Shown: positions 13,378 to 34,209 of the stretch, piece by piece | Layout of the letters: each line of letters opens with the position of its first letter | How positions within the stretch are numbered: the first letter of the stretch is position 1 | NCBI GenBank assembly: GCA_029248675.1 | Contig: JAQWIX010000049.1 | Coordinates: 1-34,209 of the forward strand | From: Pseudomonadales bacterium | GTDB lineage: Bacteria > Pseudomonadota > Gammaproteobacteria > Pseudomonadales > Azotimanducaceae | Direction of reading: 5' to 3' | Length of the DNA: 34,209 nt | Translations under genes and position numbers: made by a program | The notes under the pieces: model-generated | The model's input: the letters and a program-made list of their open reading frames with translations, nothing else | The model's database searches: none | Told to the model about the DNA's origin: nothing

Positions 13378-14391
13378 TTAGGAAAGAGCTTCCTTGGTGG
13401 TCTTAACAATGGCTGCGGCCACTTTGTACGGATCCGCATTGGAGGCAGTGCGTCGGTCTTCCAGACGACCTACCCAGCCGTCGGCAGGGGTGGTTACTGG
13501 GATTCGGATGGACGCGCCACGATCAGAGATACCGTAGCTGAACTCGTCGATAGACTGAGTCTCGTGCTTGCCGGTCAAGCGCTGGTCATTGTCGGCTCCG
13601 TAGACGCTGATGTGACGCTGAATGTTCTTACCAAATTCTTCACAGATCTTGGTGAACACCTCTTCCTTGCCTTCGGTGCGCATGGCTTCATTGGAGAAGT
13701 TTGCGTGCATGCCCGAACCGTTCCAGTCCAGATCGCCAAAGGGCTTTGGATGCCAGTTGATGGTGTAACCGTACTTTTCGCCGGTACGCTCCAGCAGATA
13801 ACGAGCAATCCAAGTTTCGTCACCGGCTTGCTTGGCACCCTTGGCGAAGACTTGGAATTCCCATTGGCCAGCGGCTACTTCTGCGTTGATGCCTTCAACG
13901 TTAATGCCAGCTTCTAGGCAGATGTCGAAGTGTTCTTCAACGCAGTCCCGACCAAAGGCGTTACCTGCGCCAACCGAGCAGTAGTAAGGGCCTTGTGGTG
14001 CGGGGAAACCGCCGGGAGGGAAGCCAGGAGGCAATTGAGTGTCGATATCCCACAAAAAGTACTCTTGCTCGAAGCCGAACCAGAAATCGTTGTCGTCATC
14101 GTCAATGGTGGCTCGTCCGTTGGACGGATGCGGCGTGCCATCGGCGTTCAAAACTTCACACATGACGAGGTAAGCGTTGTGTCGGTCTGGATCTGGGTAG
14201 ATGGCGACGGGCTTGAGTAAGCAATCAGAGCTGCCGCCTTCTGCCTGTTCGGTTGAGCTGCCGTCGAAAGACCACATCGAGACGTCTTCCAGAGCGCCGG
14301 TGAAGTTGTCCTTGCTCATTTGCGTCTTGCTGCGCAGGCTCTGTGTGGGCTGGTATCCGTCCAGCCAAATGTATTCCAGTTTAGATTTCAT
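13378..14391 (-). CDS. type II glutamine synthetase (GSII, eukaryotic/rhizobial glnII type)
   Basis: 337 aa; MKSKLEYIWLDGYQPTQSLRSKTQ, WSFDGSSTEQA, GPYYCSVGAGNAFGRDCVEEHFDICLEAGINVEGINAEVAAGQWEFQV, HANFSNEAMR, GASIRIPV, YLEDRR-like GRLEDRRTASNADPY. GSII rather than GSI signatures. Confidence 0.95.
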   Translation of the reverse strand: MKSKLEYIWLDGYQPTQSLRSKTQMSKDNFTGALEDVSMWSFDGSSTEQAEGGSSDCLLKPVAIYPDPDRHNAYLVMCEVLNADGTPHPSNGRATIDDDDNDFWFGFEQEYFLWDIDTQLPPGFPPGGFPAPQGPYYCSVGAGNAFGRDCVEEHFDICLEAGINVEGINAEVAAGQWEFQVFAKGAKQAGDETWIARYLLERTGEKYGYTINWHPKPFGDLDWNGSGMHANFSNEAMRTEGKEEVFTKICEEFGKNIQRHISVYGADNDQRLTGKHETQSIDEFSYGISDRGASIRIPVTTPADGWVGRLEDRRTASNADPYKVAAAIVKTTKEALS

Positions 14392-28126: not shown

Positions 28127-30799
28127 TTAAAACAAATCCACCGCCCGAATTTCTTCGCTGCTGACATCGCCTTTTTTGATGGTCACTGCGGGATCCGGCG
28201 CAAATTCAGCTAAAAAAACTTCGTCAAGGGCCGAGGGGTTGCTGGGGTATGTCGGCTGTCCGGTCTCTCGATCTATGCGCAAATTTACGACCCCGGGGGG
28301 TTGGGGCAGCATTTGCTCGGGTACGCCGTCGAGGGCGTCGCGCATGAAATCGATCCAAATGGGTAGCGGTATATTCGAGCCGTAAGCGTTTCGCCCTAAC
28401 GCTTCCTGATCTTTAAAGCCTACCCAGACGCTGGCGACGAGACTGGAGTTGAACCCATTAAACCAAGTATCCGACGCATCGTTGGTGGTGCCGGTCTTTC
28501 CAGCAAGGTCATTGCGGCCCAGGGCCCTAGCCCTTCGGCCAGTACCGAGCTTGATGACGTCGCGAAGCATGGATTGCATGATGAAGGCATTGCGCTCGTC
28601 GAGTACACGCTGTGCTACCACGACAGAGGTTTCGTTTGGCTTAGCGCTCTCCGCTTCCGCCAGCAGTCTGTCGAGAATCGTTGAGGCCAGCCAATCCATC
28701 TTAGGTTCCTTGGCTGGCTCTGCGCCCTTTGTTGAACGATTCTCTTGTTCCACTGCAATCTGCGGGTCCGGGCAAGACGAACACACTCTGGCGGGGGTTG
28801 CGGCGAATAGCACGATGCCCTGCTGATCGACCAGTCGATCTACGATGTAGGGTTCCACCAAATAACCGCCATTGGCCAACACAGCATAGGCTTTGGCCAT
28901 ATCAACTGGCGCCACGGTCATGGTGCCGCCACCAAGGGCGAGCTGGGTATTGCGCGGAAATGACGTCATATCGAAGCCAAACTTGCGCACATCGCGAAGT
29001 ACTCGCCCGGCACCGATTTTCAGCAACACGCGCATGGAGACTAAGTTGATGGAGCGATACAGAGCTTCACGCAAACGCGTTGGCCCGTTGTATCGGTTGT
29101 TGTCGTTTTCTGGCCGGTATTGAGATTCCAAATTAGCGTCCTCGAAAACTAAGGGCGCATCAAGAAAGATATCTGCTGGGGTAATGCCTCGACTGAGCGC
29201 TGAGCTGTAGACAAAGGGTTTGAAGCCAGACCCCGGTTGACGCTGGGCTTGCAGGGCGTAGTTGTACTGGTTGCGATAAAAATCGTAGCCGCCCATCAGT
29301 GCCCGTATGGCCCCATCGTTTGGATCAATGGCGATCAAGGCGCCCTGAATTTCGGGCAGCTGAGTCAGCAGCCAAGTGGCTTGTTCCTGCTGCGTTGGGG
29401 GTTTTACGTTCACCCGAACGATGTCACCCACGGCTAGTATGTCATCCATCCGTTGAGGTCTAGGGCCCAGTTCGTCCACAGAAATGTAGGCCCTCGCCCA
29501 CTTGCTGGCTTCCAAGGTGATGGATCCAATGTCGCCATCCTTGGTCACAAACTCCGCGCTATCCTCGGTAAGCTTTACAACCACAGCCGGTGTTTGTTGC
29601 TCGAACGTAGTAAAGCTCTCAAGTTCAGCTTTGATGCTTGCAACGACTTGGGTTTCTTTTGTTTCCGAGTTGTCGCTATCCGGCGGAGTTACCAAGTCTG
29701 ATTGCTGGGGCGCATCCAAGGATGGACGTTCCAGCTGCTCACCAACCGTTCCGAAGGTCTGATCGAGGTCAGTGAGCAACGCTGGGGACACTCGACCTTC
29801 GGGTCCGCGGTAGCCGTGGTCTTGATCGTACTTAAGTAGCCCGTGTCGCAGCGCCTGCATTGCCGACCGCTGTTGCGCGCTATCTAAGGTCGTATAAATC
29901 TCGTAACCACCTGTATATAGATCCGGCACAAGCCCGGTGACTTGCTGTCTTGCCCACTCCGCAACATAAGGGCTGGGTAAGTCTAGCTCGCGGGCATAGA
30001 CCTTGGCGGTAATGGGCGCGGCGAATGCCTCGTCGTACTGAGCTCTAGTAATCGACTGTTGAGACAGCATGCGACCCAGCACTTGGTTGCGGCGGCGTAG
30101 TGCCCACTCGGGTCCGTTGATGGGATTGCCGGCTTCCGGCCGCTGGGGGGTGCCAGCCAGCATGGCAAGCTGGGCTAAGGTTAACTGGTTCAGAGATTTA
30201 CCGTAGTAAGTAACCGCCGCAGCTTCGGCTCCATAGGCACGTTTGCCGAAGGGAACGAGATTGACATACAGCTCAAGAATCTCGTCCTTGCTGAGCTTTT
30301 GCTCGATTTTCAATGACAGCAGCATTTCTTTGAACTTGCGTAAAAAGCTGCGTTCAAGGGTGAAGGAAACATTTCGGGCAAGCTGCATGGTGATGGTGCT
30401 CGCGCCACCTAGTCGCTCGTTTCCGATGCCTGCGAGACTGGCCGCTAGCTGCATGACGTCATTGGCTAGGGAAATGTAGTCAATACCATGGTGCTGATAG
30501 AAGCGTTTGTCTTCGGTATCTAAAATCGCGTTGATGAAATCTTGAGGAACATCCTCTAATGCGATTGGGATTAGCCGTCTTTCGCCAAATTCGCCAATCA
30601 GTTCCCCGTCCTTGGCATAAATGCGCAGAGGAGCTTCTAACGTGACATTGCGGAACGTTGAAGCTTCTGGAATCTGTGGATCGAGATAGATGTAGGTGGC
30701 AGATACCCCGATAACGACGGTACAGAGAGTCGCCAAAGCAAAAAGGCTGAGGACTCTTAAGACCGGATGCTTGCGCTTAGACCGCTTGGGGCTGTTCAT
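28127..30799 (-). CDS. mrcA: penicillin-binding protein 1A (bifunctional transglycosylase/transpeptidase)
   Basis: Likely start MNSPKRSKRKHPVLRV at 30799; EDKRFYQHHGIDY, GGASTITMQLARN, SxxK in RQPGSGFKPFVYSSAL, KTGTTNDASDTWFNG. Confidence 0.96.
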   Translation of the reverse strand: MNSPKRSKRKHPVLRVLSLFALATLCTVVIGVSATYIYLDPQIPEASTFRNVTLEAPLRIYAKDGELIGEFGERRLIPIALEDVPQDFINAILDTEDKRFYQHHGIDYISLANDVMQLAASLAGIGNERLGGASTITMQLARNVSFTLERSFLRKFKEMLLSLKIEQKLSKDEILELYVNLVPFGKRAYGAEAAAVTYYGKSLNQLTLAQLAMLAGTPQRPEAGNPINGPEWALRRRNQVLGRMLSQQSITRAQYDEAFAAPITAKVYARELDLPSPYVAEWARQQVTGLVPDLYTGGYEIYTTLDSAQQRSAMQALRHGLLKYDQDHGYRGPEGRVSPALLTDLDQTFGTVGEQLERPSLDAPQQSDLVTPPDSDNSETKETQVVASIKAELESFTTFEQQTPAVVVKLTEDSAEFVTKDGDIGSITLEASKWARAYISVDELGPRPQRMDDILAVGDIVRVNVKPPTQQEQATWLLTQLPEIQGALIAIDPNDGAIRALMGGYDFYRNQYNYALQAQRQPGSGFKPFVYSSALSRGITPADIFLDAPLVFEDANLESQYRPENDNNRYNGPTRLREALYRSINLVSMRVLLKIGAGRVLRDVRKFGFDMTSFPRNTQLALGGGTMTVAPVDMAKAYAVLANGGYLVEPYIVDRLVDQQGIVLFAATPARVCSSCPDPQIAVEQENRSTKGAEPAKEPKMDWLASTILDRLLAEAESAKPNETSVVVAQRVLDERNAFIMQSMLRDVIKLGTGRRARALGRNDLAGKTGTTNDASDTWFNGFNSSLVASVWVGFKDQEALGRNAYGSNIPLPIWIDFMRDALDGVPEQMLPQPPGVVNLRIDRETGQPTYPSNPSALDEVFLAEFAPDPAVTIKKGDVSSEEIRAVDLF

Positions 30800-31001
30800 A
30801 TGGCTGGTTTCTGCTGCCAGAAGAGATCGGACGTTGCGGGGAAAGCATAGCAAAATGGATCTGGCAGAACACTGACCCAGTTGTCAGATCTGGCCGGATA
30901 TCGAGAGGCAGAACGCTTACATTGAAATCAGAGCGGATGTCTCGTTAAGCGATGCTCCGCTCGCCATCCTCGGTTTCACATTAGACAGGCGTCGTGGTGG
31001 C

Positions 31002-34000
31002 TTGATGAGAGGATTGAACGCCGAGAAGACTGAAAAAGCTGATGACACAGACAGGATCGATGAGGCAAACAGGATCGATGAAACGGACAGAATCGGTGAA
31101 ATAGAGAAAATCGATGAAATAGAAAGAACCGATGAAATAGAAAGAATCGATAAAACAGACCGCCCTGACCTGACGGGCATTCGTAGCCGCTCGGCTCTTC
31201 GCTTCTCAAACCCCTTGGTTCGAGCACGGGGGCTCTTTAGATTCTTTGGATTCGACGATCCGGCCTCTGTCAGCGGTGTGCTGGGGTTTTGTTTTCATGG
31301 TGATAGCGGGGCGGTTTGCTACCTAGCCCATCACCGAGGGAGGGGGGCGTATCGCCGGCCCTCGCTGGAGGGTTCTTGCTTTGTGCTCGTCAATAGTGAG
31401 ATCTGGCAGATTGAAGAGCCTGATGGTCTGTCTGTGTACCAGCGGTGCCAGCGAGTATTTGACCTGCCCGTTGGCGGCCCGTTTCCCCAAGTTTGGGTGA
31501 GTACCAATCTGGCCTCGGGCGCAGAGGCTGCCGTCAGCGTGCCAGGGTCCTTACACCGCACACTGGTTTTTTCCGCAGCCCAAGAACTGGGGCAATTCGC
31601 GTCTCGTGCCGCCGCTGATTTGTTGGGTTCTGGTCGTGGTGAAAGCTGGTTGGAGCAGGCAAAAGCCGAAGAGCCCCCGGCTTTTGACTACACGTTGCTT
31701 CGCGTATCGCTAGAACCGGAGGCTGTCCAGCCGCCGGTTGCCCAGCGCGACCACCCGCCCGAAAAAACTTTTTCGAAGTCTGCTAGTGCCCAAGCTAGGC
31801 TTTGGTGGATGGCGGGTTACGCAGCTTCGAATCTGTTGACCCAGTTGCAGGGGCACGGTCTTACAGTTGCCGGCGTGACGCCAGATGGTGTGGCCTTGTA
31901 CTGGGGTTTGGAGCGCCTGTGGCAGGAGTCTAATTCCGATTTAAGCGCTCTGGGCGGCCCCTGGGCGTTGGTGGAAGATAGTGATCAGCCTAGCCTATGG
32001 CTTTATTCCGGGCCTTGGTTTCAAAGCCGCCTACTGGTGGATTCGCTGGATGCTTTGCAAACTTTGGATTTAGAGGAACAGACCAAAATCGTTCTCTGGC
32101 TGACCACGAAAGACACCGTCGAGGCGTTAGCAGATTCGTTGGCTGAGACGTGGACCGTCTTTGACAATACGCTATCGCGCTGGTCGAGGGGTAGGCGCTA
32201 CCCCGGTCCAACGTTAGAGATACCATCGATTATCGCCCTAGGAAGTGCATTGCAGGGCAGTCGACAGCCCTCAGGTGATTGGCAGAAGGAAGATGCACCT
32301 CCAAGGATAAACTTGCTGCCTTGGCGAGGGGCATGGCTGCAACGTCGCCAAGGTCAACTTTACTGCCAGTTTGTTGGCCTGGCCCTCGTGTTTTCCGCAT
32401 GCGCTTATGCATGGTTCGAAGTGTTTCAGCGCAAAGCAGACTTCAGCCACCGGTTGTTGACCGACGCAAGGGCGGAGCATCAGAAAATTCTGGAGGCCCA
32501 GCAACAGGCCCAAGCCCAAGACCATGCTCGCGCCGCTCGTAAGGCAGCACTGGCGCAACTTGATGTTCATGGAAAGTACGGCCAGCGCCAATTGCTTACC
32601 GTTGAGGCCCTGTTGGCATTGATGCCAGAGTGCTTGGTGATTTGTCGAATTGCTCTCACCGAACGTTCGGCAACGATTTTTGGTTCTGCATCAAATGTGA
32701 ACCGCCAGTGTTCTTTCTGCCTAAGCCGCCTATGGCGGTCGCCTTGGCCTGCTCGCGTCGCGTTTTTGTCGGTGCTCTGCAGTATGGGAACGACTCTTGC
32801 TGCAAGTCTTGATCACGAATCTAAAAAAACCTCGATCCTTGCTGCCTCCGATTCCTTGTCGGCTCCGGGCGCTGAGTTGCGCCTGAATTTACAGCTTCAG
32901 GATGCCCCCGTGCGAGATCTGATTCAGCTCCTAGCCCATCAAAAAGGTATCAGCGTTTTAGTCAGTGAGGAGGTGTCAGGCAGACTGTCCATGAACTTGG
33001 TGGATGTGGCCTGGTCTGATGCTTGGGCTACTACGCTGTCAGCTGCCGGGCTCGCTGAACGAGTTCGACAAGGCATCCGCTTCGTGGCTCCGGCTGAGGC
33101 ACTTGCCGCCCAGGAAACCCAAGCGTTGAGCGATGCGCAAACCGTTGAGAAGCTTGTGCCGTTAAAAACCGTCGTGATTCGTGTCCGCTATGCTCGCGCC
33201 AATCTTCTGATTAAGCACTTAGCTGCAGATAAAGCCGGGCTGTCGGATCGCGGTAAGGTTTTTGTGGATGAGCGTCTTAACGCCTTGATTATTCGAGATG
33301 CGCCGAGTCGGCTGGAGGCATTGCGTCACTTGGTTGAATTGTTGGATGTGCCGCTTTCTCAAGTGGCGATCGAGGCACGAATAGTGACTGCCAGCGACAG
33401 CTTGAACCAACAGCTTGGTATAGCTTGGCAGACGGCGTTTAGCTCTGTAGCAACTACGGATGGTGCCACTGATGTTGGCAGCAATTCGATAAATACCTTG
33501 GTGGCCACTACGGCTTTGTCGACCGCTTCTCCGGCCTCGACTTTGGCGCTTGGGGTTCTTCGTCCTGGCATTGCCATAGATGCACAGCTGTCTTCCCTAG
33601 TTGAGCAGGGGCGAGCGCGGGTCTTGGCCAAGCCGAAAATCCTCACCATGGATCAGTCGTTGGCATCCATTCAGTCCGGCGTACAAATTCCCTATCAAGA
33701 AACCAGTCGCAGCGGGGCCACGTCCACATCGTTTAAAGATGCGGTGTTGTCTTTGCACGTCCGGCCTCAGGTCACCCCGGATTACAATATTCTGATGCAG
33801 CTAAAGGTGAAGCAGGACACGGTAGGCCAGATTTTCAATGGCGTGCCGTCAATTAACACGAACGAGATGCAAACAAATGTGCTGGTGGGGAACGGTCAGA
33901 CATTGGTCTTGGGAGGTATTTTGCAGGAGGACGAAAACGACGCGCGGCGCAAAACGCCTATCTTGGGAGACCTGCCTTTTGTTGGTCGTTTGTTCCGGCG

Positions 34001-34091
34001 CAAGATCAAACGTAAGGACCAGCAGGAACTGTTGGTCTTTATCACGCCGACCCTAGTAGCAAACGAGCCGGTTGCAACCACCCTTGATTAA
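31002..34091 (+). CDS. 1029-aa composite protein: repeat leader + HofM/PilM-like + truncated HofN/PilN-like + HofQ/PilQ-type secretin
   Basis: Single uninterrupted frame (TTG 31002 or ATG 31005). Segments: hexapeptide repeats; FDYTLLRVSL...GLTVAGVTPDGVALYWGLERLW...IPSIIALGSAL (HofM-like); PRINLLPWRGAW + TM (PilN/HofN-like, from 32301); LNLQLQDAPVRDLIQLLAHQKGISVLVSEEVSGRLSMNL ... VPSINTNEMQTNVLVGNGQTLVLGGILQ...KTPILGDLPFVGRLFR...QELLVFITPTLV (STN + secretin). Confidence 0.85.
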   Translation: MMRGLNAEKTEKADDTDRIDEANRIDETDRIGEIEKIDEIERTDEIERIDKTDRPDLTGIRSRSALRFSNPLVRARGLFRFFGFDDPASVSGVLGFCFHGDSGAVCYLAHHRGRGAYRRPSLEGSCFVLVNSEIWQIEEPDGLSVYQRCQRVFDLPVGGPFPQVWVSTNLASGAEAAVSVPGSLHRTLVFSAAQELGQFASRAAADLLGSGRGESWLEQAKAEEPPAFDYTLLRVSLEPEAVQPPVAQRDHPPEKTFSKSASAQARLWWMAGYAASNLLTQLQGHGLTVAGVTPDGVALYWGLERLWQESNSDLSALGGPWALVEDSDQPSLWLYSGPWFQSRLLVDSLDALQTLDLEEQTKIVLWLTTKDTVEALADSLAETWTVFDNTLSRWSRGRRYPGPTLEIPSIIALGSALQGSRQPSGDWQKEDAPPRINLLPWRGAWLQRRQGQLYCQFVGLALVFSACAYAWFEVFQRKADFSHRLLTDARAEHQKILEAQQQAQAQDHARAARKAALAQLDVHGKYGQRQLLTVEALLALMPECLVICRIALTERSATIFGSASNVNRQCSFCLSRLWRSPWPARVAFLSVLCSMGTTLAASLDHESKKTSILAASDSLSAPGAELRLNLQLQDAPVRDLIQLLAHQKGISVLVSEEVSGRLSMNLVDVAWSDAWATTLSAAGLAERVRQGIRFVAPAEALAAQETQALSDAQTVEKLVPLKTVVIRVRYARANLLIKHLAADKAGLSDRGKVFVDERLNALIIRDAPSRLEALRHLVELLDVPLSQVAIEARIVTASDSLNQQLGIAWQTAFSSVATTDGATDVGSNSINTLVATTALSTASPASTLALGVLRPGIAIDAQLSSLVEQGRARVLAKPKILTMDQSLASIQSGVQIPYQETSRSGATSTSFKDAVLSLHVRPQVTPDYNILMQLKVKQDTVGQIFNGVPSINTNEMQTNVLVGNGQTLVLGGILQEDENDARRKTPILGDLPFVGRLFRRKIKRKDQQELLVFITPTLVANEPVATTLD
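31053..31160 (+). repeat. six tandem 18-bp degenerate repeats
   Basis: AGGATCGATGAGGCAAAC / AGGATCGATGAAACGGAC / AGAATCGGTGAAATAGAG / AAAATCGATGAAATAGAA / AGAACCGATGAAATAGAA / AGAATCGATAAAACAGAC; translates as (R/K)(I/T)(D/G)(E/K)xx x 6. Confidence 0.95.
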
Positions 34092-34209
34092 AAGAACTGA
34101 CAGAATTGGGTCGTTGCATTTCTGCTTGGAAGGACGAGCCCTGCTGTCTGGGGTATCGCCCCGTTTTCGTGATGGTTCCCGTGGCAATTGGATGACAATT
34201 GGATGGAAA

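Follow-up and report, generated by a model that had tools for sequence, protein, structure and literature searches.

In this work we analysed a 34,209-nucleotide stretch of a Pseudomonadales genome (the window) in which a 1029-aa gene next to mrcA/ponA brings together HofM/PilM-like, HofN/PilN and HofQ/PilQ segments. We hold with fairly high confidence, from comparison with relatives of the same genus, that this gene is a deletion scar in a decaying competence-pilus (hof/pil/com) operon; it most likely reflects ordinary gene decay, not a new machine.

The open frame and its segments

The frame runs from 31002 to 34091 on the + strand without a single stop, whereas the longest stop-free run in 200 shuffles of the same bases was 221 codons. 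The initial annotation had described a stop-free 3.1-kb frame with M, N and Q adjoining mrcA, and both the frame analysis and the gene order agree with it. The features are as follows.

28127–30853, −, mrcA/ponA, divergent neighbour, intact
31002–34091, +, 1029-aa open frame made of M, the first half of N and the whole of Q (frame analysis, shuffles)
31041–31160, +, array of 6.7 tandem copies of an 18-nt unit at the 5' end of the frame, translated as DETDRI-like repeats
31203–32294, +, M segment, in the HofM/PilM place, flanked by mrcA and PilN as in relatives; an actin-like fold is weakly suggested
32301–32696, +, N segment: INLLPWR start, transmembrane helix, coiled coil, first alpha-beta-beta motif
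32680–32700, +, putative deletion join, PilN homology ending just before the GTG of Q
32697–34091, +, Q segment, HofQ/PilQ secretin with its own in-frame GTG start (family searches, alignment with relatives)
32697–32807, +, retained secretin signal peptide, MNRQCSFCLSRLWRSPWPARVAFLSVLCSMGTTLAA-S, the cleavage site being placed by eye

The last 463 aa form a complete HofQ/PilQ secretin. Pfam recognizes Secretin_N (aa 723–787, E 3e-11) and Secretin (aa 866–1019, E 1.5e-46), the NCBIfam models PilQ and HofQ match at 1.6e-110 and 1.6e-76, the signal peptide is present, and the segment is 60–66% identical to the Q proteins of relatives. No AMIN domain was found in the family searches, as had been noted at first sight. 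The boundary of Q, initially drawn at about 32820, is moved upstream to GTG 32697, an in-frame start with a signal peptide. A TGA in the next frame overlaps this GTG (GTGA), which matches the ATGA of relatives at the P/Q boundary; Q has retained its own start. We also weighed a frameshifted start at ATG 32732, which supposes that a base is lost from a run of T, and abandoned it in favour of the in-frame GTG with its overlapping TGA. The contig ends about 118 bases after Q with an 11-bp direct repeat, CAATTGGATGA (34185–34205), and the expected next gene, aroK, lies outside the contig.

The N segment is, by its homology, a truncated PilN. The NLLPWR start, transmembrane helix (aa 457–475), coil and first alpha-beta-beta motif are present and homologous, while the second of the two alpha-beta-beta motifs that make up the PilN core (PMC5805733) is missing. 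Over its PilN columns, a profile of the MN genes of this clade picks up a separate gene of about 190 aa in most of the 268 genomes with a match, out of 392 of the order. Its best match in the PDB is PilN 3jc8, at a weak E of 0.12, and the Pfam PilN signal, seen in relatives, is also weak (0.013). The PilN identity first proposed for this segment thus stands, with the correction that the PilN part stops half-way through the periplasmic domain: homology runs to aa 564–565 (...SATIFGSASN) and then ends, the next codon being the in-frame GTG 32697. The cut appears to fall inside the folded PilN domain, because the model of the window MN ends after the first alpha-beta-beta motif (helix 372–473, strands 478–485 and 490–496) whereas that of the intact protein of G023, a genome of the same genus, goes on with one helix and two more strands, both models having a low mean confidence (about 51). 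A weak search with the G023 model retrieved two GspL proteins, PulL and XcpY, through their periplasmic domains (E 0.03–0.07, prob 0.99–1.00).

The M segment lies where HofM/PilM belongs. Sequence searches give the proposed HofM-like assignment no significant backing: there is no Pfam or NCBIfam match (relatives were included in the Pfam check), and the M profile compared with other HofM/PilM proteins of the genus gives a non-significant E of 0.08. AlphaFold models of MN computed from seven sequences had a mean pLDDT of about 51 on both occasions and do not place M firmly; a Foldseek search with a low-confidence model ranks Pseudomonas aeruginosa PilM third (E 8.5e-3, prob 0.96). Position and weak fold resemblance to PilM are consistent with a HofM/PilM-like segment and fall short of proving it. 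The true start of M is uncertain and could be ATG 31005 or a TTG further on, beyond the 18-nt repeats. These repeats have no counterpart in the aligned relatives and are possibly located upstream of the true start. In two genomes of the genus, G028 and G007, MN has a tail reading SAETDKIDE and SAETDKTDD, respectively, oddly like the DETDRI-type repeats that precede M in the window. Several genomes of the genus share the feature of short tandem arrays at the edges of genes, between Q and aroK in loci L044 and L043, and at about 7090–7170 in L060.

The operon in the genus

In G028, the order is mrcA (−), a 568-aa MN frame, an overlapping 461-aa OP frame, a 465-aa Q that starts from an ATGA overlap, aroK and aroB, the last two named by resemblance. 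G019 and G023 share this layout, as do G007 and G011 as far as their contigs reach, most genomes of relatives being draft assemblies. A separate OP gene thus stands between MN and Q in all five, the observation that the initial annotation had named as refuting its fusion. Other lineages of the genus carry M, N, OP and Q, or five separate genes. The presence of the M–N fusion in relatives indicates that the M–N join is old: on these gene comparisons, the M–N fusion and a Q without AMIN domain characterize a subclade, and only the N–Q join is peculiar to the window. About 1.4 kb that G028 possesses is absent at this join, namely the second half of PilN and the whole O–P gene. The breakpoints of the putative deletion are approximate.

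On a well-supported mrcA tree the operon between mrcA and aroK was lost at least six more times, the genome of the window (G000) not being counted. Nothing recognizable of it remains between the two genes in G022, G012, G035 and G015. G002 keeps the last ~59 aa of Q at this place, and comparison with its sister G004 reveals a deletion of about 3.3 kb whose flanking matches overlap by about 10 nt. In G001, a 5' stub of M is left and hofB is split. In G024, a stub of M continues in frame into the last ~55 aa of Q, and a frameshift follows (L069, 16095–16320); compared with G019 the deletion amounts to about 4.0 kb, dprA is broken and comEC has no match. This M-to-Q joint is an independent scar. 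The operon of G059 may be decaying too, as it carries two stops, a TGA in frame inside N and a TAA close to the P terminus, while being otherwise open (L060, 6820–8353).

The rest of the DNA-uptake pathway

Orthologues of O and P were found nowhere in the assembly and the PilO Pfam search of the genome gave no match, so the loss of O and P initially proposed is upheld; the PilP Pfam search was uninformative, since no positive control responded to it. PilO and PilP, which a functional alignment complex of PilMNOP and PilQ would include, are thus missing, and no second HofQ was found in the genome. On contig C95, comEC (L076) is interrupted by a single in-frame TAG, the rest of the frame being open and conserved; aligned copies of relatives are uninterrupted, and the search of the genus returned no other comEC stop. 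ComEC forms the DNA channel of the inner membrane; in Acinetobacter baumannii, transformation falls under the limit of detection when it is inactivated (PMC11472951). Contig C160 groups the genes of a pilin, a short HofB-type ATPase and HofC with coaE. The frames of pilin, hofB, hofC and dprA are still open. The C-terminal part of HofB (L065, 2235–3506) is very unlike that of G059 over about 45 aa, in an open frame. Relative branch lengths indicate that MN evolves only mildly faster in this genome, an effect too weak to date the loss. Altogether, a deletion scar in a competence operon is recognized by an intact operon in relatives, an internal deletion and further competence lesions, and all three are found here.

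An assembly error, in which the real genome would hold an intact O–P gene and the assembler would have skipped about 1.4 kb, is an unlikely explanation, yet the least unlikely of the alternatives. The genome is a draft of 192 contigs, about 92% complete, and the contig stops 118 bases after Q in the 11-bp repeat. Against such an error, O/P orthologues are absent from the whole assembly, comEC has its own lesion on another contig, the operon is truly variable in the genus, and the other genes of the window that were examined look intact. A glutamine synthetase gene of the window (13378–14391, −) encodes a short, 337-aa type and adjoins an NtrB/NtrC-like pair. It is distantly similar to the longer forms (mostly about 470–520 aa) of other families in the order, and we considered it as a possible second deletion; this was rejected, as the protein is full length and 81–98% identical across the genus.

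Origin and fate of the 1029-aa gene

The deletion would have arisen in an ancestor with the order mrcA (divergent), fused MN, fused OP, Q and aroK. A loss of about 1.4 kb would have taken the second half of PilN, all of O–P and the P/Q spacer, leaving MN and Q in the same frame by a one-in-three chance. Read-through would then give a 113-kDa chimera that the N helix would anchor in the inner membrane, with a broken PilN domain. Q alone might also be made from its retained GTG and signal peptide, and without PilO and PilP it would have no link to the inner-membrane platform. As comEC also carries a stop, the cell probably no longer takes up DNA by this route. The absence of any stop or frameshift over 3 kb of frame is a point against decay, as are the pilin, hofB, hofC and dprA genes, whose frames are still open. 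In Pasteurellaceae, it was argued that few lesions per genome mean a recent loss (Redfield et al. 2006, PMC1626085), and the same reasoning fits the clean frame observed here. The frame, the gene order of relatives, the lack of O/P and of half of PilN, the comEC stop and the repeated losses in the genus are observed; we infer that the deletion is present in the genome itself, that the system no longer functions and that its loss is recent.

A functional MN–Q protein, in which PilM/N of the inner membrane would be tied directly to the secretin and would make O and P needless in a minimal DNA-uptake or pilus device, is very unlikely. The long frame without stops and the retention of pilin, hofB and hofC would suit it. 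However, the join appears to lie inside the ferredoxin-like domain of PilN and not between domains, the signal peptide of Q is left in the middle of the frame, the secretin would end up anchored to the inner membrane, no other match of the fusion was obtained in the genomes searched, comEC is broken, and pilus extension and retraction are described as depending on PilMNOP (PMC5805733). The minimal working MNQ device evoked in the initial annotation is accordingly not supported, the M–N join being old, the missing AMIN domain a clade trait and the N–Q join one that halves the PilN domain; the same annotation also spoke of a remnant, and this reading is strengthened by the deletion, the retained Q start, the comEC stop and the further losses in the genus. 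Least likely of all, and hardly credible, is that Q serves as a stand-alone secretin made from GTG 32697 behind a dead MN' leader, since this complete secretin, despite its start, its signal peptide and its identity to the Q proteins of relatives, has no partner P to connect it and no clear ribosome-binding site upstream of the GTG, and its branch in this genome is not shorter, relative to relatives, than that of mrcA.

Comparison with known systems

Read as a decayed operon, the locus resembles the comABCDE (pilMNOPQ) genes of Pasteurellaceae, where an internal deletion fuses the secretin gene to the 5' part of another gene (comE to comD in Haemophilus somnus) and a stop interrupts comA in H. 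ducreyi (Redfield et al. 2006, PMC1626085). Competence genes are broken genome by genome there, as in the genus of the window. In contrast with the comD–comE joint of H. somnus, the join studied here connects N to Q, is in frame, leaves Q whole and has an older MN fusion upstream. The locus has the usual context of hofMNOPQ/pilMNOPQ, since it diverges from mrcA and, in relatives, is followed by aroK, with homologous N and Q; it departs from it by the lack of O and P and by a halved N. PilM–PilN gene fusions are reported in most Campylobacterota type IV pilus clusters (PMC11870540), and GspL is the type II secretion equivalent of a PilM–PilN fusion (PMC4471445). Like these proteins, the window gene unites a cytoplasmic PilM-like part and a membrane/periplasmic PilN-like part in one polypeptide; unlike them, it breaks off within the periplasmic half and continues as a secretin.

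A gene fusion is commonly regarded as a sign of partnership or of a new machine; for the one in the window, a scar is the better reading. Intact, half-deleted and fully deleted competence operons form a natural series in the genus, which can help to time the loss of natural transformation and to learn by what route and how frequently it happens.
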